From a virus, in the IMG/VR virus record IMGVR_UViG_3300036806_000051, positions 1 to 37,152 of that record: a stretch of DNA of 37,152 nt. One strand, 5' to 3'. Shown one piece after another: positions 7,661 to 32,694 of the stretch (positions are counted from its first letter, which is position 1; every line of letters begins with the position of its first letter). Below the pieces are notes generated by a model, which saw only the letters and a program-made list of their open reading frames with translations, had not been told where the DNA came from and did not search any database. Made by a program: the position numbers and the translations under genes.

Positions 7661-8695
7661 TCAGCCCGCCCAGCTCGCGAGGGCCGCGGCCGCGCGCTTC
7701 GCGGATCCGGTCCGGTACGTGTAGACCAGCCCGAGCGCGGCCTCGCGCTGCGCCTCGAGCTCGGGCCCGCCCGCGAACGCGGCGGCGACCGCGGCCGCCA
7801 GCTGGGGTCGTCGGTGGACCTGGACCCCGACGTGGGCCGCGCCGCAGAAGTGCGGGCCGGCAGTGATCGGGCATCCGGCAGACCGCTGGAACCGGAGCCC
7901 GTGATCGACGGCGAGCCGGTAGGTCGGCGGGTTCAGGACGACCACGTTCCGGCCCGTCGCGGCGAACGCGAATCCCGCGCTCGTGTTGTCGAACATCAGG
8001 ACGTCCGCGCGCCGGCTGACCTCGGCGAAGGAGGCGACCGGTTCGATGCCGACCTTGCGGTACCAGGGCACGAGGTCGGCGAACGCTCGAGGGTGCCCGG
8101 TCCCGATGATCGCGAAGTCGCCCGACCCGACGAGGTCGCGCAGATCATTCCGGATCCACGGGAACGCCCAGCGCGTCTCCTCGCAGACGTTCATGTCCCC
8201 GTGGAACGTCACGGCGAGGGTGAGCGGTCCGCCCGGCTCGCGTCGCGGCAGGGCCTCGGCGGCCGGCGACCCGATCACGGCGACCTCCGCCCTGGGGTAG
8301 CGGGCCCGATCCCGCGCGGCGGCCTGCTCGTTCGGGTGCAGGAACAGCCCGTACGCGTCCCGGCTCGCGCCGCCCGCGTAGCTCGAGGACTCGCCCGACA
8401 GTCGCTGCCCGCCGTAGCTCTGGCCGGCCCCGTGCTCCATGAGGGCGATCCGGGTGTAGCCCTTCGCGGCGACCGCGCGCCGCTCGCCGACGGCCGCGAC
8501 GAGCACGGGCCCGGGGGCGAGCTCGAGCGGGACGGCCCGGATCTTCGCCTTCAGGCCCAGGGCGGCGAGGGCGTCGAGCTCGCGCTGCCCGGCGACCATG
8601 TAGAGCCCGCGCCGCCGCGCCGGCAGGGCGGCGAAGATCGGGGCAGTGTGCTCGACGTAGTGGGGCCAGGACGCGTAGACGTTCACGCGGTTCAC
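7661..8695 (-). CDS. GT-B-type transferase resembling CDP-glycerol glycerophosphotransferases
   Basis: Putative sugar- or polyol-phosphate transferase of 344 aa. The motif pair is typical of TagF/TagB-like GT-B enzymes: MEHGAGQSYGG at about 86-96 in the middle and FDNTSAGFAFAATGRNVVVL at about 235-254, matching the D-x-S....E/F-a-a-x-g-x-P-v-v-x-L donor-site pattern. IGTGHPRAF (197-205) fits the 'KlHP' position. The donor and acceptor are not evident. The GTG start at 8695 makes a GTGA overlap with the stop of the preceding neck gene. A longer in-frame extension upstream exists but lies antisense-like over that gene and was not used. Presence inside the neck gene cluster suggests an acceptor on the virion or cell surface. 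Confidence 0.7.
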   Translation of the reverse strand: MNRVNVYASWPHYVEHTAPIFAALPARRRGLYMVAGQRELDALAALGLKAKIRAVPLELAPGPVLVAAVGERRAVAAKGYTRIALMEHGAGQSYGGQRLSGESSSYAGGASRDAYGLFLHPNEQAAARDRARYPRAEVAVIGSPAAEALPRREPGGPLTLAVTFHGDMNVCEETRWAFPWIRNDLRDLVGSGDFAIIGTGHPRAFADLVPWYRKVGIEPVASFAEVSRRADVLMFDNTSAGFAFAATGRNVVVLNPPTYRLAVDHGLRFQRSAGCPITAGPHFCGAAHVGVQVHRRPQLAAAVAAAFAGGPELEAQREAALGLVYTYRTGSAKRAAAALASWAG

Positions 8696-9147
8696 GAGCC
8701 CGACTCCGTCGGGACGTAGTCGGGGTTCAGCCGGAGGACGACCACGATCCCGACCGCCCGGACGTCCACCGAGCGGACCACGTCGAAGCGGACCGCCTCG
8801 ATGTACGCGTCCCACCACATCGGGTTGCGGCGGTGCGTGTCGACCGCGGCGTGGGCCTCGTCGACCCAGGCTGCCAGGGCGAGCGACACGTCGCGGTCGC
8901 GGGTGAGGACGCGCGCCTCGCCCTTCGCCGCGACGGTGTACGCGAGCCGGACGCGGAGGTCCGCCTCCGGCCATCGGCCCCGGTCCTCCTCGAGCTTCTG
9001 GGGGAGCCCGACGTCCGGCCACGCGTACAGGCGGGCGGCCACGTACTTCGCGGGGATCGCGCAGCTCTCGTCGGCGACCGTGCCCGAGGGCATCGGCATC
9101 ACCGCGCGGAGTGCGTCCACCGCGGCGATCGTCCGCGGGGCCGTCAT
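8692..9147 (-). CDS. neck protein, possible tail terminator
   Basis: Structural protein of 151 aa coupled to the connector gene upstream (ATGA overlap, start ATG 9147). It begins TIAAVDALRAVMPMPSGTVADESC and has a beta-rich middle, VRLAYTVAAKGEARVLTRDRDVSLALAAWVDE. It ends FDVVRSVDVRAVGIVVVLRLNPDY. That overall form (small alpha/beta protein, two long strands at the end) is common for tail terminators or head-closure proteins. I cannot distinguish these two roles. Its place between connector and gp10-like genes supports a neck function. Confidence 0.55.
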   Translation of the reverse strand: MTAPRTIAAVDALRAVMPMPSGTVADESCAIPAKYVAARLYAWPDVGLPQKLEEDRGRWPEADLRVRLAYTVAAKGEARVLTRDRDVSLALAAWVDEAHAAVDTHRRNPMWWDAYIEAVRFDVVRSVDVRAVGIVVVLRLNPDYVPTESGS

Positions 9148-9719
9148 CGGTCAGTGATCCGGTGCGTCGCGCCCGTGCCGAGCTGGACCGTCCGGAGCCC
9201 ACGGTGCGGGTTCAGCTTGCGGGCGATTGCCTCGCGCTGCGCCTCGACGGGGACGGATCGGCTGGACGAGTGGCCCTCGGTGGACTCCTGGGCGAACGGG
9301 CTCGCGGTGAGCGTCAGCCGGCAGAGCTCGAGGATCGCGCGGCGGACCGACTGGAGGTCCGTCGGCGTGGAGGTGACTTCGACCTTCGGACCCTGCCAGC
9401 TGCCGCCGATCCGCTCGAGGCGGGCGGGCCCGGTCAGGGCGTACTGGTCGGGGGTGAGGGTGACGCCGCCGTCGACCACGGCGAACTCCTCGCCGGATCC
9501 GCCCGCGGTCGGGCTGGTCGGGCGGCGGAGCAGGAGCGGGTCGGCGTAGCCGGCCTGGACCCAGATCGTCTGGGTGCGCTCGCCCGTGAGGGGCCCGATC
9601 CCGACGACCGCGTCGGTCGCGAGCCAGTCCTCCTCGCGGTCGATCACGCCCTGGAGCGCCTCGGCCTCGAGGCCGGGCGAGATCAGGGCTTCGACTTCCG
9701 CGACGTCGACGATGCTCAT
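9144..9719 (-). CDS. head-tail connector / adaptor protein
   Basis: Probable head-tail adaptor (gp6-like connector, 191 aa) encoded right after the major capsid gene. Residues 1-40 give the helical pattern expected of this family: VAEVEALISPGLEAEALQGVIDREEDWLA. A beta-rich middle (GVTLTPDQYALTGPARLERIGGSW) is followed by a helix, LQSVRRAILELCRLTLTASPF, and a basic C-terminus. Start ATG 9719. The 80-base gap upstream contains a perfect 12-bp inverted repeat. Confidence 0.65.
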   Translation of the reverse strand: MSIVDVAEVEALISPGLEAEALQGVIDREEDWLATDAVVGIGPLTGERTQTIWVQAGYADPLLLRRPTSPTAGGSGEEFAVVDGGVTLTPDQYALTGPARLERIGGSWQGPKVEVTSTPTDLQSVRRAILELCRLTLTASPFAQESTEGHSSSRSVPVEAQREAIARKLNPHRGLRTVQLGTGATHRITDR

Positions 9720-9732
9720 CGTTCGGCGAGCC

Positions 9733-9773
9733 GGCGAGGGGTGGAACCCGAGGAGGTCAGACCACCCCTCGCC
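9733..9773 (-). terminator. 12-bp stem-loop after the major capsid gene (attenuator-like)
   Basis: Perfect inverted repeat: GGCGAGGGGTGG at 9733-9744 and CCACCCCTCGCC at 9762-9773, with a 17-base loop. It lies in the gap between the capsid stop (9800) and the connector start (9719). No U-tract follows in the minus-strand transcript. It may act as an attenuator or a 3'-end stabiliser that lets capsid mRNA exceed downstream mRNA, rather than as a full terminator. Confidence 0.55.
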
Positions 9774-9799
9774 CGCTCAGCTCCTCTCGTCTGCCGGGC

Positions 9800-10621
9800 C
9801 TACGGCCGGCTGGCGGTGAGGATCGCCAGGGCCTCGGGGCGGAGGACCTTGACGCCGTACAGGTGGAGGCCCTTGACCGCGTCGGCGAAGCGCCGCTCGG
9901 GTCGGAAGGCTTCGACCTTGTTGATCTGCTCGGCGTACGACGTGGCGATCGCGTGGCCGGTCACGATCGCGTAGTCGGACGTGTTCACGAGGCCGTTGTT
10001 CGACCGGATCACGCGGAACCCGGCCGCCTCGCCGACCTGCCCGTTCGCGAGGGTGGACGCGGCCGAAGCTGCGCCCGACGCCACGAACCGGTCGTCCTTG
10101 AGGAGCAGGCCGTAGTACCACGGCGGGACGATCGCGAAGCGGCCGTCGGCCGGGACGTCGCGCTCGTCCAGGTCCGTCGAACAATCGACGAGCTGGTCGT
10201 ACGCCTCGGTCTCGGAGGTCACGACGGGGGTGCCGTCCGTCGCCATCGCGACCGCGACGGCGTGGTCGGCCTTCTTCGCCATCTTGTAGGCGGCGTTCTG
10301 GGTCGCCCCGTCCATGAGCGGGACCGACGCCTGCCGCTTGTCCACGTCGTCGACCTGGAAGTTGAAGTAGTCGGCCGAGTCGATGACCAGCGAGGTCATG
10401 TCATCGTCCAGGTCCTCGGGCGCGTCGATGTCCGAGTTCTTCGTGTATTCCTTGACGGTGATGTCGCTGATCGCGCCGATCCGGACGGTGTCGCCCTTCT
10501 CGGCAATCTCGCCCTCGTAGTCGCGATTGACGACGCCGCCCTGCGCGAAGACGAGGGCCGTCTCCAGGTGCGCGAGAAGGCGGGCGGTCCAGACCTCGGC
10601 GATGAAGCCGTCGACTGACAC
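9800..10621 (-). CDS. major capsid protein, P22-coat-like
   Basis: Major head subunit of 273 aa. The pattern is that of the P22 coat protein 5-like family of HK97-fold capsids: an N-terminal helix FIAEVWTARLLAHLETALVFA, then VNRDYEGEIAEKGDTVRIGAI and VIDSADYFNFQVDDVDKRQA. An A-domain-like helix with DGTPVV follows, then GRFAIVPPWYYGLLLKD and the end YAIVTGHAIATSYAEQINKVEAFRP. Start GTG 10621 with a good Shine-Dalgarno (GGAGG, plus 10631-10635, 9 bases away). It lies after scaffold and the glycan cassette and has its own promoter at 10787-10814 with a structured leader of roughly 155-160 bases. Confidence 0.88.
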   Translation of the reverse strand: MSVDGFIAEVWTARLLAHLETALVFAQGGVVNRDYEGEIAEKGDTVRIGAISDITVKEYTKNSDIDAPEDLDDDMTSLVIDSADYFNFQVDDVDKRQASVPLMDGATQNAAYKMAKKADHAVAVAMATDGTPVVTSETEAYDQLVDCSTDLDERDVPADGRFAIVPPWYYGLLLKDDRFVASGAASAASTLANGQVGEAAGFRVIRSNNGLVNTSDYAIVTGHAIATSYAEQINKVEAFRPERRFADAVKGLHLYGVKVLRPEALAILTASRP

Positions 10622-10650
10622 GGTGGGGGTCCTCCAGGGTCACGGGCTCC

Positions 10651-10695
10651 GGAACCTTCGGTCGGTTCCTCCGCTCACTTCCTCGCCGTGCGAGG
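10651..10695 (-). other. two small hairpins in the major-capsid leader
   Basis: The transcribed leader between the promoter at 10787-10814 and the capsid start contains two perfect short inverted repeats: GGAACC/GGTTCC (10651-10656 and 10664-10669, 7-base loop) and CCTCGC/GCGAGG (10681-10686 and 10690-10695, 3-base loop). They may stabilise the capsid mRNA or be chance products of a GC-rich sequence. No gene was found in 10622-10810. Confidence 0.35.
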
Positions 10696-10786
10696 CGGCC
10701 GCCTGGGCCGGGACGGGGTGCCCCCTGGGGCTGCGAGTCCGACCGGCCTGCCGCTCGAGCTCGCCCGCGGTTTCGTTTCGGCCGCG

Positions 10787-10814
10787 ACTATATCACCGGG
10801 CAATCGCCCGTCAA
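10787..10814 (-). promoter_or_regulatory. near-consensus sigma70-type promoter for the major capsid gene
   Basis: The minus strand carries TTGACG (10814-10809), a 16-base spacer and TATAGT (10792-10787). Each hexamer matches the consensus at 5 of 6 positions, which stands out in this GC-rich sequence. The spacer contains a small palindrome, CGGGC-GATT-GCCCG. The -35 box overlaps the stop codon (TGA 10813-10811) of the last glycan-cassette gene. The promoter would give the capsid gene independent, high transcription. Confidence 0.72.
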
Positions 10815-11545
10815 CGGTGCGGACGCGCCGCGAGCTCGAGGAACGCCGCCCGCAGCGCGGCCTGCCGCTCGGCCATTGCGCCCCGATCCGTGAGCCGGAC
10901 CACCCCCGGGACGATCCGATCGCCGAACGCCGACGCGTAGTCGGTGAACTTGTGCAGACCGCCGATCACGTCGCCGTGAGGCTCGAGGACGTGCGGGACG
11001 CCCAGGGCGTCGGCCGCGATCAGGGCGTGGAGGCTGGACGTATGGAGGACGCCCGCGGTCGCGAGCCGCGCCAGGAACAGGGTCGGCCGGCTCCGGACGT
11101 CCAGGAACCGGGCCTCGGGGTGACGGTCGACCATCGCGTGATCGACGTAGTGCGGAGCGATGGCCATCGGCGCGTCGGGCTTGCGCGGTCGGACGCCGCC
11201 GATCAGGTCGGGGACGAGGATGCCGGGGTCGCCCAGGACGGTCGCCGTCCGCGATAGCCCGAGCGCGTCCCGCGTGAGCGCGCCGCGAACGGCGAGTACT
11301 CGAGCGGCCGGGATCGAGCGGCGGCCGACGGGCCGGATGAACCCGGTCCCCAGGATGGTCCCGGCCCACGCGTTCGGCATCTTCGTCAGGACGCTCCCGA
11401 CCGTGACGAGCTCGGCGGCCCGCGGCGACGCCCACTCCGCCTCGATGCCGAAGTGCCGGAGGAGGACCGGGCCGAGCTGATCCCCGAAGTTCCGGCCCAG
11501 GCCGCACGTATGGCACCAGTACGTGAGGACCCGCGGCCGGCTCAC
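10811..11545 (-). CDS. polysaccharide pyruvyl transferase family protein
   Basis: Predicted to add a pyruvate ketal to a sugar, as CsaB-type and exopolysaccharide pyruvyl transferases (PF04230) do; 244 aa. Family features in order: NFGDQLGPVLLRHFG near the N-terminus (the 'N-x-G-D' nucleotide-side motif), VGSVLTKM (about 48-55), AVRGALTRDALGL (about 80-92), VLGDPGILVPDL, and the C-terminal SSLHALIAADALGVPHV followed by GLHKFTDYASAFGDR, which matches the 'SSLHG....KF.DYysS' ending of the family. GTG start at 11545 gives a GTGA overlap with the deacetylase. The length is shorter than many family members (about 300-400 aa). The acceptor is unknown. Confidence 0.83.
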   Translation of the reverse strand: MSRPRVLTYWCHTCGLGRNFGDQLGPVLLRHFGIEAEWASPRAAELVTVGSVLTKMPNAWAGTILGTGFIRPVGRRSIPAARVLAVRGALTRDALGLSRTATVLGDPGILVPDLIGGVRPRKPDAPMAIAPHYVDHAMVDRHPEARFLDVRSRPTLFLARLATAGVLHTSSLHALIAADALGVPHVLEPHGDVIGGLHKFTDYASAFGDRIVPGVVRLTDRGAMAERQAALRAAFLELAARPHR

Positions 11546-12042
11546 CGCCGCCCCATCCCGGGCCCCGGCTCCCAGCGGTCCGCGACGAACACTTCGCCCC
11601 GCTCGATGCCGCGGCCCTCGAGCCCGTACCGTCGGGCGATCTTGTCGGTCCGCCCGTCGTGCCGGCCGTAGGGCCACGCGAGCCGGCGAGGTCGGACGCC
11701 GAGGAGGTCGGCGAGGTCGTTCTGGGCCCGGGTCAGCTCCCAGACCATCGCGGCGGGCGGGATCCGGTCCATCAGCGGGTGACTGTAGGTGTGATTGCCG
11801 ATCGTATGACCGCGCCCGTGGAGCTCCCGGACGAGCGCGGCGGACGCCTGCCCGCGGAGTCCGATCCACCCCGTCACCACGAAGAACACGCCGCGCAGAT
11901 CCCGGAGCTCGAGGGCGTCGGCCGCGGTCCCGATGTCCGCGTACCCGTCGTCGAAGTGGAACTCGTCGAACCGTCGGGCCGCGCGGGCCAGCTCGGCGGG
12001 GAAGTCTTCGGTGAGCCGGTGCCAGAGGGCGACCGGCTTCAC
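11542..12042 (-). CDS. polysaccharide deacetylase (NodB homology domain)
   Basis: Predicted to remove acetyl groups from N-acetylated sugars in a surface polysaccharide or peptidoglycan; carbohydrate esterase family 4. Of 166 aa, nearly all is the NodB fold. Motif 1 is HFDDGYAD with D31 and D32. Motif 2 is IGNHTYSHPLMD with metal-binding H84 and H88. The AWPYGRHDG region corresponds to motif 3 (RxPxG-like, here W-P-Y-G). No signal peptide or membrane segment is seen, so the enzyme would act in the cytoplasm on precursors, or on virions. GTG start at 12042 overlaps the stop of the rhamnosyltransferase-like gene (GTGA), so the two are coupled. Confidence 0.85.
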   Translation of the reverse strand: MKPVALWHRLTEDFPAELARAARRFDEFHFDDGYADIGTAADALELRDLRGVFFVVTGWIGLRGQASAALVRELHGRGHTIGNHTYSHPLMDRIPPAAMVWELTRAQNDLADLLGVRPRRLAWPYGRHDGRTDKIARRYGLEGRGIERGEVFVADRWEPGPGMGRR

Positions 12043-12773
12043 TCGAGGACGCGCCAGTCGACGCCCGGGAACAGGCGGCGGATCCGCTCGGTCAGCTCCC
12101 CGTCGGCCTGCCGGTGGCCGCTGATCGTGTCGGCGTGCCGGGACCAGAGCCATGCCGGTTGCGTGTCCACGGTGACGATCGGGGCGGTCCGCTTGACGTC
12201 GCGGTGCCCGTAGTCGTAGACGCCCAGGGCGTCGCCCGGCATGGTCGCGAGGGTATGCATCGCGTTCTCATCGTGGACGACCCGGACCGCTCGGCCCTGC
12301 CAGACGCGGTAGCCGACGGGCTGCATGAGGATCGTCCGCCGCATAACGGCCCGTGCCGCGCGGACCGTCCGGGCGAGCGCGTCCGGAGTGAGGCCATCAT
12401 CGTCGTCGAGCCGAGTTTGGAGGGTCAGCTCCGACCGGTCGCCGATCGCCTCAGCCCAGGGGGCCCGGTAGGCGGTCGCCGCGATCTTCTGGACGGTGGT
12501 CGTCTCGCGGGCCTTGTCCCAGGGGGCCTGCGCGACCGTGCCCGGCCGCCAGAGCAGGACCACGAGCCGAGGGGCGGCGGCGGCGAATACCGCGCGCCGC
12601 TCCTCGAGCATCGGGTCGCGTTCGTCCAGGAGCACGATCCAGGTCCAGTCGCGGTGCGACTGGCCGGCCATGAGGCGAGCTGTCACGGCTTCGGTGATCC
12701 GGAGCCGTCGCGCGTTCGCCTCGGGGGTCCAGTCGGGACCGTACGCCGAGCGCGTCAGGACGAAGTGACGCAC
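12039..12773 (-). CDS. rhamnosyltransferase-like glycosyltransferase
   Basis: Putative glycosyltransferase of 244 aa resembling the PF11316 rhamnosyl transferase family. It starts RHFVLTRSAYGPDW, like the 'hfvlTRFs' start of that family. The segment WIVLLDERDP lies at about 45-54. An acidic metal-binding stretch, TRLDDDDGLTPDAL (D123-D126), equals the DxD motif for the nucleotide-sugar donor. IVTVDTQPAWLWSRHADT lies near the C-terminus. The GTG start at 12773 was chosen because the sequence upstream in this frame runs into the scaffold gene. It opens a three-gene cassette with deacetylase and pyruvyl transferase. The donor sugar cannot be read from the sequence. Confidence 0.75.
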   Translation of the reverse strand: MRHFVLTRSAYGPDWTPEANARRLRITEAVTARLMAGQSHRDWTWIVLLDERDPMLEERRAVFAAAAPRLVVLLWRPGTVAQAPWDKARETTTVQKIAATAYRAPWAEAIGDRSELTLQTRLDDDDGLTPDALARTVRAARAVMRRTILMQPVGYRVWQGRAVRVVHDENAMHTLATMPGDALGVYDYGHRDVKRTAPIVTVDTQPAWLWSRHADTISGHRQADGELTERIRRLFPGVDWRVLE

Positions 12774-12786
12774 CGCGTCGGCCCGA

Positions 12787-13551
12787 TCAGGACGGCTTCG
12801 CGAGGACCTTCTGGACCTCGTCCCAGCGGCGGTTGATTTCCGCCGCGGGCATCTTCCGGACCTCCTCGATCGTGAGCGGCTTGCCGCCACCGCGAGATCC
12901 GCCATCGGCCGAGCCCGCCCCGCCGCCGCCCCCGGACGTGGCCGCGAACTGCGGGTGATCCTTCAGGAGCTTGGCGACCAGGGCGGCCACGTTCTTCGGC
13001 TCGCCGTCATCGTCGTATTCGACGTCGGCCCGGTCGATCAGCCTGGGGATCAGGGCGAGGGATCCGGCCGGGACGCCCGCCGCGGCCGCGGCCTCGCGGA
13101 TCGCTGCCGAGGTCAGCCGTTCGGTCGCCGCCGTCTCGCGGGCCGCCGCCTTCTCCTCGCGTTCCTTGACCTCGGCGGCCTTCTTCTCGTCGGCCGTGAG
13201 CTGGGCGTCCTTGAGCGTCTTCAGCTCGGTCCGGGCGGCCGCCGCCTCGCGGTTCGCCTTCGCCGTGGCCGCGTCGATGTCGGCCTGGGTGAACGTCTTC
13301 CCAGCGTCGCCGGCCGCGCCCACTCCGCCAGCTGCGCCCGCTCCGGCCCCGGCATCGCCGGCCGCGCCGGTCCCGGATCCGCCAGCTGCGCCACCGGCCG
13401 CGCCACCCGCGGCCCCGGAGCCGGCCCCAGCGCCAGAGCCCGCCCCGGCTCCGGCATCGCCGCCAGCTGCGCCACCGGCCGCGCCGCCCGCGCCCTCGCC
13501 CTCGGGCGGTGTCAGATAGAGCGGGCCGAGCCCGCGCCCGTGCAGTCGCAT
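12787..13551 (-). CDS. capsid scaffold protein with Gly/Ala-rich repeat
   Basis: Probable internal scaffold (254 aa) encoded between portal and capsid genes. Residues 19-84 are an extreme Gly/Ala low-complexity region, with an 11-residue repeat AGGAAGGAAGG present twice 27 residues apart. Residues about 88-157 are a charged coiled coil (TAKANREAAAARTELKTLKD, EREEKAAARETAATERL), typical of scaffolds. The C-terminus is IEEVRKMPAAEINRRWDEVQKVL, like the capsid-binding helix ends of phage scaffolds. A strong Shine-Dalgarno GAGGAGG lies 8 bases before ATG 13551. No protease motif was seen. Confidence 0.8.
   Translation of the reverse strand: MRLHGRGLGPLYLTPPEGEGAGGAAGGAAGGDAGAGAGSGAGAGSGAAGGAAGGAAGGSGTGAAGDAGAGAGAAGGVGAAGDAGKTFTQADIDAATAKANREAAAARTELKTLKDAQLTADEKKAAEVKEREEKAAARETAATERLTSAAIREAAAAAGVPAGSLALIPRLIDRADVEYDDDGEPKNVAALVAKLLKDHPQFAATSGGGGGAGSADGGSRGGGKPLTIEEVRKMPAAEINRRWDEVQKVLAKPS
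13381..13492 (-). repeat. in-frame 31-bp direct repeat inside the scaffold gene
   Basis: Two 31-bp copies (13381-13411 and 13462-13492) differ at one base and are 81 bp apart, a multiple of three. They encode the repeated Gly/Ala block of the scaffold. Other partial copies of the same codon pattern lie at about 13327-13370. This looks like slippage or unequal recombination within a low-complexity coding region. Confidence 0.75.
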
Positions 13552-13571: not shown

Positions 13572-15176
13572 TCAGGCCGGGACGGGAACTCCTGCCCCGT
13601 TCGCCGGCCCCGCGCCGCCGCCCATGATGCCCGGTTCCGGGCCGCCCGTACCACTCGAGTTCGCGGCGGCCAGGGCCGAGGTCGCCTTCGCCGCGGCCTC
13701 GGCCTCAGCCTTCTGGGTCTTCTCGAGCTCGGCGGTCCAGTCGGCGATCTCCTGGGGGGTCGCCGGGATGCGGGCCCAGATCGCGGGGATCGGGACCTTG
13801 AGGGCCATGAGCTTCGACAGGGCGTCGTAGTGCGCCGACTCGGGCTTCGTCTCGGGATCGCGGGGCACGATCTCGGCGTCGGTGATCGCCGCCCAGCGGA
13901 GGTACTTCTCCTTGCGCGCCGCGGCGAGTCCGGGCTGCGACGCCTTCACCCGGAACGAGAACCGGATCGCGTCCTCGGTCGGATCGCCGAAGTCGACCAT
14001 CCGCTCGCGGGCCTTCTCCGACAGGCCGCGCTCGGCGGCGGTCAGGGACTCGCCCGACGGGAACGTGCCCTGGCTCCCCAGGAGGTAGTGGACCGGGAGG
14101 CGGGTGATCGTCGCGAGGGCTTGCACCAGGGCCTCGTGGACGCCGATGTACCCCGTCAGCTCCGACTGGTCGAACTCGCCGAACTTCGTCTCGTTCGTGC
14201 TGCCGTCCGCGGGCGGCGGGGCGGTGATCAGCTTGTCGATCGCGACGTCCCAGGGTTCCTTCGTCTTGCCCGTGGACTCGTCTACCTCGAGGGTCACGTT
14301 CGTCGCGTACTTCTGCCGGAACGCCCCGTACAGGCCGGCGAGCATGACGTTCGCCACGTTCACGTTGATCGCGTCTTGGATCGGAATCAGCTGGGCGATC
14401 TCCGACTCGCCGACGCCGTGCAGGTCCGGGCGGTTCGGCAGAGCGAACACGGGCACGGTCGCGAACGGGTTCGGCAGGGGCCACTCCTCATCGGGGACCG
14501 TGCGCTTCTCCCAGGTGCCGGCGAGCGCGGCGGTCATCGTCTGAGGCTTGCCGGCCCCGCCGCCCTTCCCGAACCCCTCCGGCAGATCGCCGAGCTTCGG
14601 CGTCTCGATCGAGCCGGCCGCGGACTGGAACTTGTAGATCGCGTCCGGCAGGTACAGGGTCGCGAACGTCCGGCCCTCGTCTTCCCACCGCTTCAGCGCC
14701 GCACGGCGGATCCGACGGTCCGCGGGATCAGTCGCGACGATGACCTCCGAGCCGTCCTCGACCGTGATCTTCGGCTCGCCGCTCGAGTCCGGCCAGACGA
14801 TCAGGCCGAACTCGCCCTTCGTCAGTCCGACGCGGAGCCCGCGCTTGTAGCCCGCGTCCAGGTTCGACGCTTGCCAGACCTCCCAGGCGGCCGCCGCGGC
14901 GGCATCATCCTTCGCGAACCGGAACCCGTTCACCCCGAGCCGCTCGTTCACGGCGTCCACCACGACGCCGCAGTAGTTCACGAACAGCGGGATGTTGCGG
15001 AGCCCGAACGCGTCCATGACCTGCCGGATCTTGTACGTCTTCCGGTGCCGGCCGTGGTAGTAATCGTCGGCCAGGGCCATCTCGGTCTGCCGCCCGTCCA
15101 GCCTCGCGATCAGCCGGCCGAGCCACCAGTACGGGCTGAGGGCCACCGCCCCCTGGATCTGGACCGCGTCAGCCAC
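13572..15176 (-). CDS. portal protein (SPP1 gp6-like)
   Basis: Portal protein (534 aa), the dodecameric DNA gateway of the capsid. Its features match the SPP1-type portal family (PF05133): DDYYHGRHRKTYKI near the N-terminus, NYCGVVVDAVNERLGVNGFRF, a beta-rich wing with EDGSEVIVATDP, then IPIQDAINVNVANVMLAGLYGAFRQK and VHEALVQALATITRLPVHYLLGS. The segment SGESLTAAERGLSEKARE marks the conserved stem helix. The C-terminal tail is Gly/Pro/Ala-rich. GTG start at 15176 overlaps the SAP-like gene by 8 bases. The terminase large subunit gene lies about 600 bp upstream. Confidence 0.92.
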   Translation of the reverse strand: MADAVQIQGAVALSPYWWLGRLIARLDGRQTEMALADDYYHGRHRKTYKIRQVMDAFGLRNIPLFVNYCGVVVDAVNERLGVNGFRFAKDDAAAAAAWEVWQASNLDAGYKRGLRVGLTKGEFGLIVWPDSSGEPKITVEDGSEVIVATDPADRRIRRAALKRWEDEGRTFATLYLPDAIYKFQSAAGSIETPKLGDLPEGFGKGGGAGKPQTMTAALAGTWEKRTVPDEEWPLPNPFATVPVFALPNRPDLHGVGESEIAQLIPIQDAINVNVANVMLAGLYGAFRQKYATNVTLEVDESTGKTKEPWDVAIDKLITAPPPADGSTNETKFGEFDQSELTGYIGVHEALVQALATITRLPVHYLLGSQGTFPSGESLTAAERGLSEKARERMVDFGDPTEDAIRFSFRVKASQPGLAAARKEKYLRWAAITDAEIVPRDPETKPESAHYDALSKLMALKVPIPAIWARIPATPQEIADWTAELEKTQKAEAEAAAKATSALAAANSSGTGGPEPGIMGGGAGPANGAGVPVPA

Positions 15177-15670: not shown

Positions 15671-15804
15671 GGGATCACGAACTCGGCGTCGCGCGGATCT
15701 GGTGCCGGCGAGGACGTGACGCGGAAGGCCCAGTCCACGATCGCCGCGTAGACGTAGACGCCGACCACGAACGCGCCGATCGGGGCGAGGATCCGGACGA
15801 TCAC
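15667..15804 (-). CDS. 45-aa membrane protein tiled behind terminase
   Basis: A small gene with 4-base GTGA overlaps on both sides: GTG start 15804 over the terminase stop, and TGA 15669-15667 over the next GTG. The protein has one hydrophobic helix (ILAPIGAFVVGVYVYAAIVDWAF, shown here only in outline, about residues 5-26) and an acidic/proline tail ending RDAEFVIP. The exact tiling and in-frame hydrophobic segment support a real gene. Function unknown. Confidence 0.7.
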   Translation of the reverse strand: MIVRILAPIGAFVVGVYVYAAIVDWAFRVTSSPAPDPRDAEFVIP

Positions 15805-17555
15805 CGGAACGAGCCGAACCCGCCCGACGGGGCGGCCGGGGGCCGCGGGGCCGTCATGGCCCGGTGAACGGCGACGATCACCGCGGTCGCTCCGACGATC
15901 TCCTTGCCGGCTCGAGCGGCGAGGGCCCAGCCGGTCGTCGTCTCGCGGGCGACCACGTCGCCGACCTGGATCGCGAGCGCGGGATCGGCCTCGTGGATCA
16001 GCAGGCCCTTCGTCGCGAGGCCGAGCAGCGTCTCGGCGGCGGGGGCCAGACGCTCGGGCGAGGTCGGGATATCGACCATTGCCGCGCCGGTCGCCCGGAG
16101 CCGCTGGGCCGACCCTTCGAAGAAGGCCCCCGTGTACGCGATCTCCGGGCCGGCCGCGGGCAGCAGCTTCTCGGGAGCTCCGGGGCGGAGCCGCTTCGGT
16201 ACCAGGACGCGGGCCGGGTGCGACTTCCGCAGGCCCTCGAGCTCGGCCTCGAGCTCGGCGACGCCCAGGTATTCCCCGAACGGGAGCGGCGTCTCCGGGT
16301 GCCGGCTGAGCCTCACCGCGACGTGGTCCCCCTGCCGCTGCGCGGCGGCGATCGCCGCGGTCCGGTGATTGTGGGCCACGAGGACCGCGACGTACACCGG
16401 CTGCTTGGGGTCCAGGGTGACGACGCCCTCGGTCGCGTCCCAGACCGGAGGGGGCATCCATCGCGTCTCGTTGTCGGGCCACCGGTTCAGGTTGTACCGG
16501 ACGTACTCCGACCGCGGGACCGTGACGTCCCGGAACGAGGCCTCGATATTCTCGATCGGCAGGCTGCCGCCCGCGGCCGGGTTCCCCTCGAGCTCGGCCT
16601 GGAGTCGCTGCGCGGGGTCCTCGAGGTCCCACCGCTCATCGGCCTCCCACCAGAGGAACAGGAATCCCGGGTCCTCGACCTCGCCCTTCGCGACCGCGAC
16701 GCCGTGGTCGTAGAGCTCGCCCAGGAGCGAATCGTGATCCGCGCCCGCGGTCGTGAGGCCGGCCTGGATGCCGCCGTGCAGGAACACGCCCGGGGGCAGG
16801 CCCAGCTCGGGCGGGGTTCGCCGGATCACCTTGCGCTTCCGGAGCGACTTGCCCTGGACCGTGTAGACGCGGCGGGCCCGCTCCGACTCCCACTCGTGGA
16901 CCTCGTCGCCCAGGTGCGCGGTCGGTTTGCCGCCGTCCGACGTGCCGCCGACGGCCGCGATCCGCTCGATCCGGCCCACCCCGTCGGGCAGCAGGATCCG
17001 GTCCTCGAGGATCTGATCGCCCTCGCGGAAGTACGGGGCGAGCGGGCCCGGGCGGCCGTTGTCGGGATCCCCGACGATGCTCAGCTTCGCCGCGTTGAAG
17101 AGCTCGACCGACTGATCGTAGGAGGCCGCGCTGAGGATCACCCGCGGCGACCGGATCGGGGCGATCGGCCCGACCAGCTCGGTCACGCCGAACTCGCCGA
17201 ACGCCTCGGTCTTGATGTTGCCCTTGCCCATGCCGATCAGCGCGCGGTCGTGCGCGAGCTTGCCGGTCAGCGGGTCGTACTCGAGGAGGCGGGCGAAGAC
17301 GTACCACCAGAACAGGGCCAGCCGGATCCGCATCCCGAGGACGTCGCCCTCGCCGTGGACGAGGTACTTCTCGATCCACCGGCAGACCAGCCGGCCGGCC
17401 GTCGGCCAGGGCGACCCGTCAGGCTGGACGGGCTGAGGGCTTGCCCACCGGGGCGGTCGGAACTCGCCCGGCTCCCCCGTCCATCGCGAGGAGTCGAGGG
17501 TCGGGCGGTCCCCCGTCGTCGGAGTCGTCGGGTTCCTCGTCGCGCTCGAGGTCAT
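15801..17555 (-). CDS. terminase large subunit
   Basis: ATPase/nuclease that cuts and pumps phage DNA into the capsid; 584 aa. A Walker A-like loop GMGKGNIKTE lies at about 108-117, SAASYDQSVELFNAAK at about 142-157 matches the adenine/coupling region, and a Walker B with catalytic acid, HLGDEVHEW, at about 214-222 (D217, E218). The C-terminal half should be the RNase H-like nuclease, but its aspartates (for example WDATEGVVTLDP) are not clear. ATG 17555 lies within the small-subunit gene, making a 137-base overlap. It is supported by a conserved-looking segment RPPRWASPQPVQPDG that begins inside the overlap. Confidence 0.9.
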   Translation of the reverse strand: MTSSATRNPTTPTTGDRPTLDSSRWTGEPGEFRPPRWASPQPVQPDGSPWPTAGRLVCRWIEKYLVHGEGDVLGMRIRLALFWWYVFARLLEYDPLTGKLAHDRALIGMGKGNIKTEAFGEFGVTELVGPIAPIRSPRVILSAASYDQSVELFNAAKLSIVGDPDNGRPGPLAPYFREGDQILEDRILLPDGVGRIERIAAVGGTSDGGKPTAHLGDEVHEWESERARRVYTVQGKSLRKRKVIRRTPPELGLPPGVFLHGGIQAGLTTAGADHDSLLGELYDHGVAVAKGEVEDPGFLFLWWEADERWDLEDPAQRLQAELEGNPAAGGSLPIENIEASFRDVTVPRSEYVRYNLNRWPDNETRWMPPPVWDATEGVVTLDPKQPVYVAVLVAHNHRTAAIAAAQRQGDHVAVRLSRHPETPLPFGEYLGVAELEAELEGLRKSHPARVLVPKRLRPGAPEKLLPAAGPEIAYTGAFFEGSAQRLRATGAAMVDIPTSPERLAPAAETLLGLATKGLLIHEADPALAIQVGDVVARETTTGWALAARAGKEIVGATAVIVAVHRAMTAPRPPAAPSGGFGSFR

Positions 17556-30517: not shown

Positions 30518-31198
30518 TCAGTGTGTCGGGGGTGCGGCGTCGGTCGGCGGGACCGACCGGAGCTTGCGCGGGTTCGCGGGCGTCTCGGGCTTGCGGAAGT
30601 TCTCCACCGGCTCCTGCCCGTCCAGCGCGGCCTCGACGATCGGGACCACGATGTCGGTCAGCTTGCCGACCGCCTCCTCGACCGGGGTGAGCTTCTGCTG
30701 CTCGCCCAGGGTCGCCCGGGTGGGCTGCCCGCTCGAGTCGAACAGGCCGAGCTGCTCGTCGAACGTCCGGATGTCGGGCTGCCACGCGCCGTACTGCCGG
30801 ACAACCCAGTGGAATTCGGTGAGGTCATGCTTCACGACGCGGAGCGCGCCGCGGTCCGACATCTCGCCGTGGCAGAGTTCGTGGGCGACGAGCGCCTCGC
30901 GTTCGACCGCGTCCAGCTCGCGCCAGTAGATCTCCTTGATCTCGATCACGGCGTCGAACCCGACCAGCCCGTGGTACAGGGGCGGGACCTTGCGGAACTT
31001 GCCCATGTAGTCGCGCTCGGCGTCCGGCTTCGGGCGTGCGCCCTGGACCATGACGTAGCCGAGCTGGAAGTTCGTCGTCCAGCCGAATCGCATGGGGTAC
31101 AGGCGGATCAGCCGGTGGGCGATTTCGCTGATATCGGCCGACTCGGAATAGACGACCGGGGCGGCGGGTTCCTTGACCTTGCGTGGTCGGCGTGGCAT
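30518..31198 (-). CDS. phage metallopeptidase-like protein
   Basis: A 226-aa protein of the phage putative metallopeptidase family (PF18894-like). Core: REALVAHELCHGEMSDRGAL at about 99-118 gives the H-E-x-x-H motif, followed by VVKHDLTEFHWVVRQYGAWQ at about 120-139, with the conserved HD-x-x-EF. N-terminal VYSESADISEIAHRLIRLYP. The substrate is unknown; it may be structural rather than catalytic. ATG 31198 has GAGGAGG 5 bases upstream, so it probably starts a translation unit after the hairpin at 31237-31271. Confidence 0.85.
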   Translation of the reverse strand: MPRRPRKVKEPAAPVVYSESADISEIAHRLIRLYPMRFGWTTNFQLGYVMVQGARPKPDAERDYMGKFRKVPPLYHGLVGFDAVIEIKEIYWRELDAVEREALVAHELCHGEMSDRGALRVVKHDLTEFHWVVRQYGAWQPDIRTFDEQLGLFDSSGQPTRATLGEQQKLTPVEEAVGKLTDIVVPIVEAALDGQEPVENFRKPETPANPRKLRSVPPTDAAPPTH

Positions 31199-31279: not shown

Positions 31280-31588
31280 TTACTTGTCGGTGCGGGTGCC
31301 CTCGACCTTCGCGGTCAGCCAGGGCCACGTCGCCGACACGGTGGCGGCGATCGCCTCCTCGAGGTGCGTGACGGTCGGGGCTTCGATCGTCTCGGGCGTG
31401 CCCTCGGGCGTCTCCCCGCTTTCGCGGAGCGTGACCCGGAACTCGTCCACGGCGAGCGGCTTCTTCGGCATCTGATCTCCTCGCTTCTTCCCCCGCCGAG
31501 CGGCGGACTTCTCCGCTCTGGCCAGGATCGCGTGTCGGTTGCGGCGGGCTCGGACCGCCGACGGGTTCGTGGCGTGCTGGGCTTTCAC
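31280..31588 (-). CDS. protein with basic N-terminus and internal start
   Basis: A 102-aa protein starting at GTG 31588, which makes a GTGA overlap with the Gp3-like gene. The first 39 residues are very basic (SAVRARRNRHAILARAEKSA and so on). An ATG at 31471 in the same frame has AGGAG 5 bases upstream and would give a 63-aa form (PKKPLAVDEFRVTLRESGET, then HLEEAIAATVSATWPWLTAK). Both forms are plausible. Function unknown. Confidence 0.6.
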   Translation of the reverse strand: MKAQHATNPSAVRARRNRHAILARAEKSAARRGKKRGDQMPKKPLAVDEFRVTLRESGETPEGTPETIEAPTVTHLEEAIAATVSATWPWLTAKVEGTRTDK

Positions 31589-32694
31589 CCGGCGAGCTGG
31601 GCTTCGATCTTCCTCCAGAGCGTCAGACGTTGCGCGGGCGTCAGGGGGACGTCCTCGGGGCGGTCCGGGAAGGCGAGCTTCGCCTCTTCGACCGCGTAGG
31701 CGAGGCCGACCTTCGCGGCGTTCAGCTTCGCGATCAGGTCCTCCTGGGTCAGGCCCTCGGGCTCGGCGTCCTCGCGGAACTCGCCCTCCTCGAGCTCGCC
31801 GGCCAGGGGGCTCGCCGCCTTCAGCGCGTCGCCCGTGGGCAGCTCGCCCGCGGCGATCGCGTCCTCGGCCGTCGCCGTGCTCGCGCCGCTGAGGCCCTCC
31901 AGGTCGGCCGGATCCGCGACGTCGCCGGTCGGGACCGGTGCCCGGAAGTCCGACTCGGCCGGCAGCTCGGCCTCGGGGCCTTCGTGCCGGACGCCCAGGC
32001 CCGTCCCGAGCTGCCGCGCCGGCGCGGCCCCCGCGTCGATCAGGTCCAGGTACCGCGTCTCGATGAACTCGATCACCGGGACCGCGTACCGGTTCGTGGG
32101 CTTGCCGGGGACCTTCTTGTCCCGCTGATCCAGGCGGAGCCGGGCGGGGATCGGCCGGCCCGCGTTCGATGCGAACGCCAGGATCTCGGCTGCCCCGGCG
32201 AGCTCGACCGCGGCGTAGAACCCGTGCGACTCGAGCCGCCAGACGCCGATGTCCGGGAGCTCGGGGAGCATGACGTTCAGCCGGGTCGTCGGCTTGCACG
32301 CGGTCGGCGGGAGTGCCGCGGCCGCGGCCCGCCGCTCGTCCGGATCCGCTGGGCAGAGGCACGGGCCGTCGGTGAGGACGTTGACCCGGCCGTCGCAGCG
32401 CCTCTGGCATCCGCCAGCTGACCAGAGCTCGTACCACTGACTGACCGACTGACCGGGCGGGACCATGATCTCGAGTGTCGGCGACGTCGTCACCACTTCC
32501 CAGCCGTCCTGCCACGCCTGGACCTCGCCGCCGTAGACCGCGGCCGCGTGTTCGATCAGCTCCCGGGAGCTCGAGGTCAGCCGGAACGTGTCCAGCTTCT
32601 CGGGCCGCATCCGGCCACCCTTCGCGCTGACCTGGACCCCGGTGCGGATCCGGCCCAGCTCGCGCATTCGGACTTGGAGGTCGGCGATCGGCAC
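31585..32694 (-). CDS. Gp3-like recombination directionality factor family protein
   Basis: A 369-aa protein resembling the recombination directionality factor Gp3-like family (phiC31 gp3 relatives, which switch serine integrases to excision). Diagnostic segments: PIADLQVRMRELGRIRTGV at the start, RPEKLDTFRLTS, YGGEVQAWQDGWEV, QWYELWSAGGCQRRCDG, then CKPTTRLNVMLPELPDIGVW followed by RLESHGFYAAVELA. The C-terminal third is acidic and low-complexity. GTG start 32694. No integrase was found here. Family members are also frequent in phages without a known integrase, so another role in DNA metabolism is possible. Confidence 0.85.
   Translation of the reverse strand: MPIADLQVRMRELGRIRTGVQVSAKGGRMRPEKLDTFRLTSSSRELIEHAAAVYGGEVQAWQDGWEVVTTSPTLEIMVPPGQSVSQWYELWSAGGCQRRCDGRVNVLTDGPCLCPADPDERRAAAAALPPTACKPTTRLNVMLPELPDIGVWRLESHGFYAAVELAGAAEILAFASNAGRPIPARLRLDQRDKKVPGKPTNRYAVPVIEFIETRYLDLIDAGAAPARQLGTGLGVRHEGPEAELPAESDFRAPVPTGDVADPADLEGLSGASTATAEDAIAAGELPTGDALKAASPLAGELEEGEFREDAEPEGLTQEDLIAKLNAAKVGLAYAVEEAKLAFPDRPEDVPLTPAQRLTLWRKIEAQLAG

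Follow-up and report, generated by a model that had tools for sequence, protein, structure and literature searches.

Why should a phage carry genes for glycan synthesis between its scaffold gene and its capsid gene? The question is raised by IMG/VR virus record IMGVR_UViG_3300036806_000051, whose 37,152 nucleotides are referred to here as the window. A first-pass annotation described a three-gene cassette encoding a rhamnosyltransferase-like protein (GT_rham), a NodB polysaccharide deacetylase (NodB) and a polysaccharide pyruvyl transferase (PPT), and left two options: that the phage decorates its virions with a modified, charged glycan, or that it remodels the host surface. The cassette itself is present as described. 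GTGA overlaps join GT_rham to NodB and NodB to PPT, all three genes lie on the minus strand, and they are flanked by the scaffold gene upstream and the major capsid protein (MCP) gene downstream. A fourth glycan gene, GTB, had been overlooked. We think it probable that the cassette and GTB together equip the phage to glycosylate its own virions, being expressed along with the late head genes and acting on proteins that end in Gly-Ser or Ala-Ser. The four genes are as follows.

12039–12773, minus strand: GT_rham, a soluble PF11316-type glycosyltransferase with a GTG start
11542–12042, minus strand: NodB, a short CE4-like polysaccharide deacetylase of 166 amino acids
10811–11545, minus strand: PPT, polysaccharide pyruvyl transferase-like
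7661–8695, minus strand: GTB, of a phage GT-B family distantly related to TagF/PF04464

The evidence that carries this proposal lies in the C-termini of virion proteins. We found 162 relatives of GTB in viral contigs and analysed 76 GTB loci, for which a simple script did the gene calling. Among 52 MCPs of GTB-positive loci, 51 end in Ser, 38 in Gly-Ser and 46 in Gly-Ser or Ala-Ser; the sole MCP without a terminal Ser is that of the window. Gly-Ser ends occur in 79 of 1207 non-MCP genes of GTB-positive loci and in 17 of 1127 genes of GTB-negative loci (a background of 1.5%). Among the non-MCP groups enriched for this ending in GTB-positive loci are those of the major tail proteins and of the head-tail connectors. 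Within one group of Phage_capsid proteins, Ser ends are found in 7/7 GTB-positive members versus 6/30 GTB-negative members (Fisher p 1.7e-4, to be read with the caution given below), and the tree of that group places the GTB-positive phages in regions apart from one another. Plain terminal Ser is not specific, since it is present in 24/77 P22-like MCPs that are GTB-negative, so our claim rests on Gly-Ser and Ala-Ser; none of the same 77 MCPs ends in Gly-Ser. The terminal Ser codons and the stop codons of the MCPs are diverse. Gene overlap as a source of the motif was rejected, as only 1 of the 52 MCP genes overlaps the next gene.

The position of GTB beside the capsid gene is preserved across several capsid families. 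The median distance between GTB and the MCP gene is 1.1 kb in the 48 loci that contain a recognised MCP of one of five sequence groups: P22-like, two Phage_capsid (PF05065) groups, a protease-capsid fusion (phrog_2263) and SU10-type (PF17236). These groups, which correspond to four families at the profile level, differ in sequence; as a rule, the capsid proteins of tailed phages have a common fold. Another glycan-type gene lies within six genes of GTB in 57 of the 76 loci. A broader reading, on which we are evenly balanced, is that C-terminal Gly-Ser or Ala-Ser is a widespread motif for glycosylation, in capsid proteins as well as in proteins of the tail tube and neck; GTB would write or elaborate it with exchangeable partners, and capsid proteins only distantly related to one another would have acquired it time and again.

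The motif is also found in phages whose C-termini were looked at after it had been noticed: the capsid protein and tail subunit of Rctr41k end in VAEGS and DLPGS, the MCP of a contig from an actinobacterial genome in ESQGS, the MCP and major tail protein of Che8 in NKTGS and YSDGS, and the capsid proteins of Firecracker and Dylan in PLVGS. Glycan genes lie between the portal and protease genes in the last two phages. The MCPs of Morrigan and Angelica do not end in Gly-Ser, and no glycan gene is annotated in the stretch read, which is part of each genome. According to passages in two papers that cite the original study, mycobacteriophages carry glycans on capsid and tail-tube proteins, at their C-termini, and Che8 carries them on its capsid (PMC11256854, PMC12619734). 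The likeness to our proposal is one of glycans reported on virion proteins, in a phage whose MCP and major tail protein both end in Gly-Ser. The Che8 enzymes belong to other families, save a gp109-like glycosyltransferase; Che8 gp109 and Firecracker gp35 form one family that is present in 30 GTB loci and absent from the window. In cluster O mycobacteriophages (Corndog, Firecracker), a methyltransferase and glycosyltransferases are encoded between the portal and protease genes, and modification of the capsid has been proposed (PMC4351075). These phages resemble the GTB loci in having glycan-type genes within the head module and, in Firecracker, a capsid protein ending in VGS, but their enzymes are GT2/GalNAc-type proteins and a methyltransferase. 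No homologue of GTB, GT_rham, PPT or NodB was detected among the Firecracker genes tested.

In the pathway that we envision, the substrates of GTB would be virion proteins with Gly-Ser or Ala-Ser at the C-terminus. GTB would either place the first sugar (or an alditol phosphate) on the terminal Ser or lengthen a short glycan at that position. A further sugar would be added by GT_rham, the NodB-like enzyme might remove an N-acetyl group, and PPT might add a pyruvate ketal, to yield a charged surface glycan. The acceptor, the linkage, the sugars, the order of the steps and the enzymatic activities are all what we infer. Because hydropathy reveals no evident signal peptide or transmembrane segment in GT_rham, NodB, PPT or GTB, the four enzymes probably work in the cytoplasm, the site of virion protein synthesis.

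GTB sits two genes past the MCP gene and is GTGA-coupled to its upstream gene (8692–9147). Searched alone, it has no hit in Pfam or PHROG, so that the curated score of PF04464 is not reached. Its AlphaFold2 model (predicted local distance difference test score (pLDDT) 88) adopts a GT-B fold, for which Foldseek places UDP-GlcNAc 2-epimerases nearest in the PDB, followed by TagF, MurG and TarL. A profile built from 15 phage homologues matches TagF-like Cps3D and TarL weakly. In Actinomycetota genomes, the GTB profile matches part of large proteins, both of the two tested carrying PF04464. GTB shares with the CDP-glycerol glycerophosphotransferases of PF04464 (TagB/TagF/TarL) the GT-B fold and a matching C-terminal half that includes the DNxS region, whereas HGAGQxY and HGLRF are invariant motifs particular to the phage family. 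Model and profile thus point to a GT-B enzyme that is a distant relative of the TagF family and not a member of it. GTB is seldom met in cultured phages or in the genomes of bacteria: a single match (Rctr41k) was found in 50,697 phage records and none on plasmids, and a profile search of 149 Actinomycetota genomes yielded one full-length copy, located in a phage region with the MCP gene on one side and connector genes on the other. Scanning bacterial genomes with a narrow sequence pattern had given no relative, and the profile search superseded that result. In eight loci (L107, L117, L126, L128, L133, L137, L143 and L150), a cytidylyltransferase-like gene (PF01467) lies near GTB. The window record has no PF01467 gene. 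These neighbours hint at a CDP-activated donor for GTB, which we note as a lead.

The resemblance of GTB to teichoic-acid enzymes of the TagF family bears on the other option, in which the four enzymes would alter wall or surface polymers of the host at a late stage of infection, perhaps to prevent superinfection or to help release. Bacterial pyruvyl transferases and NodB deacetylases modify surface polysaccharides. The pyruvyl transferase CsaB has been cited for such a role (PMC9703825). We nevertheless consider remodelling of the host surface unlikely. The enzymes have no evident signal peptide or membrane segment, although enzymes of the cytoplasm can build such polymers too; the genes keep their place around the MCP gene across several capsid families; and the C-terminal motif of the capsid would be left unexplained. 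The comparison thus leans toward virion proteins, as indicated by the genes placed around MCPs of several families and by a Ser motif on GTB-positive MCPs like that of Che8 and Firecracker. The window contributes less, as its MCP is devoid of the motif and only the 8692–9147 product has it.

The family assignments of the first-pass annotation hold for all three cassette proteins, which exceed the Pfam cut-offs in profile searches: GT_rham matches PF11316 with 48.8 bits (cut-off 23; 8.2e-13), NodB matches PF01522 with 81.7 bits (cut-off 23.1; 5.4e-23) and PPT matches PF04230 with 28.1 bits (cut-off 25.3; 2.3e-6). The motifs named there (DDDD; FDDG and HTYSH; SSLHALIAADALG) are present as well. 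The DDDD motif of GT_rham (D123–D126), a putative metal site, is invariant across four phage homologues. By its sequence GT_rham is a member of PF11316, a family in whose name rhamnose is itself putative. The predicted fold of PPT (pLDDT 92.6) matches that of the yeast pyruvyltransferase Pvg1p (probability 0.99, E 2e-3), its second-best match in the PDB, and S171 and H173 are invariant. Pfam score and predicted fold both indicate a polysaccharide pyruvyl transferase-like protein, but PPT is shorter than the PF04230 proteins CsaB and Pvg1p, and its match to the Pfam model is confined to the model's C-terminal part. NodB shares with CE4 deacetylases the Asp/Asp/His/His of motifs 1 and 2 (FDDG and HxxxH, which in this family hold the metal-binding Asp and two His); the corresponding D31, D32, H84 and H88 are invariant in three phage proteins (alignment A4). 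Catalytic-site residues of GT_rham, NodB and PPT are retained between phages at ~50% identity.

These genes recur together in other phages in more than one arrangement. Among 44 records searched, PF11316 was found in 4, PF04230 in 3 and PF01522 in 2. GT_rham had no match in the 50,697 phage records, and a nucleotide search of the phage collection returned capsid similarity only. L062 is a contig of 7.3 kb whose portal is HK97-type; in it, all four genes stand in a row between the portal and protease/capsid genes. G030 contains all four families split over two sites. GT_rham and NodB, joined by a TTGA overlap, occupy positions 9.9–11.1 kb, upstream of the terminase gene; the head module holds GTB, a second glycosyltransferase (GT2) and PPT after the head-tail connector genes. 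The cassette is absent from relatives closer to the window than L062 and G030, and further relatives carry GTB with other partners (GT2 and GT4 enzymes, methyltransferases, GT_rham or PPT). In L078 (8279–11640), the GT_rham–NodB pair of G030 lies outside the head module, between genes that by eye appear PAPS-reductase-like and ParB-like.

That cassette content and position vary between relatives would be expected if the head module were a tolerant insertion site in the late operon, with genes that act elsewhere or are transient and a NodB that is perhaps inactive. The absence of C-terminal CE4 motifs from NodB and of the Ser motif from the window MCP also fits such cargo. We judge this explanation improbable: the catalytic-site residues are conserved at the divergence noted above, the sets recur together, and the association with the C-terminal motif is strong.

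The surroundings of the cassette in the window bear on its origin and on a third alternative. The neighbouring features are listed below.

8692–9147, minus strand: neck/tail-region protein, coupled to GTB, with the C-terminus PTESGS
9144–9719, minus strand: head-tail connector-like gene, by position and conservation (synteny-set cluster 4)
9800–10621, minus strand: MCP, P22-like (phrog_267, E 5e-72), ending in LTASRP
10622–10810, minus strand: gap of 189 nucleotides separating the cassette from the MCP gene
12787–13551, minus strand: head scaffolding protein (PF06810, 4e-10; phrog_2303)
13572–15176, minus strand: portal protein (PF05133, 7.5e-19; phrog_104)
15801–17555, minus strand: terminase large subunit (phrog_9, 1.5e-45)

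The scaffold-to-MCP spacing is 2165 nucleotides in the window versus ~80 in L066 and ~170 in L003 and L004, and this far wider gap identifies the cassette as extra DNA. By G+C content at each codon position, the insertion is not conspicuous as foreign, since the cassette genes resemble their neighbours. Directly after the MCP stop codon (9720–9799), an inverted repeat, CGAGGGGTGG...CCACCCCTCG, appears terminator-like by eye. Two N6/N4 DNA methylase genes (PF01555; 20353–21975 and 28527–30509) lie outside the structural module. The genes at 31585–32694 and 30518–31198 encode a Gp3-like protein of a recombination-directionality-factor family and a PhageMetallopep protein, respectively. A search for tRNA genes found none. 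MCP relatives are spread over Actinomycetota, Chloroflexota, Bacillota and others, and do not pin down the host.

The two methylases, together with known phage glycosyltransferases that decorate DNA (cited in PMC12619734), raise the idea that the enzymes modify a base of the phage genome. Such hypermodification seems to us highly improbable. No thymidylate-synthase-type (PF00303) gene is present in the window or in eight related records, a TET/JBP search that was run without a positive control was empty, and neither a deacetylase and a pyruvyl transferase nor a capsid-linked position would be expected. None of the three alternatives, acting on the host surface, as late-operon cargo or on DNA, explains the motif association.

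Several points weigh against the glycosylation of virion proteins that we propose, beginning with the window itself. Its MCP ends in ASRP and its tail-tube-like protein in QYA, neither with a terminal Ser. The product of 8692–9147, which ends in ESGS, is the only virion-type protein of the window with a terminal Gly-Ser motif. Its homologues end in Gly-Ser in 5/5 GTB-positive phages where they were found, and the homologue in GTB-negative L002 ends in GGTP; these endings weakly suggest that this protein, rather than the MCP, is the best acceptor candidate by motif. Its last codons, however, overlap the start of GTB, and this is a single such ending. We also looked by eye for read-through or a frameshift that would give the window MCP a Ser end, and discarded the idea. 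Support is thus stronger for the general model than for the window phage in particular, where the MCP and tail-tube protein do not have the motif and one protein ending in SGS serves as a hint. NodB presents a second difficulty. At 166 amino acids it is short compared with other PF01522 deacetylases, and alignment A4, inspected by eye, contains no conserved His beyond the PYG motif that could serve as the motif-5 catalytic His, which renders its activity doubtful; the charged glycan of the first-pass annotation follows from the enzyme families only. Third, it was a comparison of C-termini that brought the motif to light, and the counts were then made on those very loci, which are partly related, so that p-values from this post hoc count overstate the evidence. 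Fourth, some GTB-negative MCPs (L224, L228 and L235) end in Gly-Ser, which indicates that GTB is not the sole route and that other enzymes could read the motif; many GTB loci hold further glycosyltransferases, leaving the choice of the Ser-acting enzyme ambiguous. Finally, the Che8 glycan data (Freeman et al. 2023) are known to us through the citing papers PMC11256854 and PMC12619734.

Some of the GTB-negative exceptions have candidate enzymes. L221 and L224, which are Ser-ended, encode a different GT-B enzyme in the equivalent region, and L217 carries GT_rham; no explanation was found for L225, L228, L235 and L285. A different glycosyltransferase family (DTGGQ motif, GT4-like) is encoded among the connector genes of L221 (9718–10785) and L224 (6664–7737 and 8279–9331). 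Near the MCP gene of GTB-negative L235, whose MCP ends in VGS, lies a gene for a glucanase-like protein (7726–8676; GH16-type by eye).

Head-module glycan genes and virion glycosylation are already known in mycobacteriophages (PMC4351075, PMC12619734). The first-pass annotation had called it unusual to find a deacetylase and a pyruvyl transferase with phage glycosyltransferases. That gene content is still unusual; the arrangement of glycan genes in a head module is less so than the annotation supposed, as it is known from cluster O (PMC4351075). As far as we have checked, the enzyme set, the GTB family and the association of the motif with GTB across capsid families are new. No paper on the C-terminal serine motif was found in the literature searched, which did not include the main virion-glycosylation paper, and an earlier description is possible.

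If our proposal is true, virion glycosylation would be common in uncultured phages and extend beyond a few mycobacteriophages. The site of modification would be readable from sequence as a capsid protein ending in Gly-Ser or Ala-Ser together with a nearby glycosyltransferase, and the choice of acceptor residues by phages would become directly testable. Glycosyltransferase 4 is among the commonest auxiliary-metabolic-gene calls in soil viruses (PMC11222151); the proposal would give a function to glycosyltransferases of phage contigs that are now listed as auxiliary metabolic genes.
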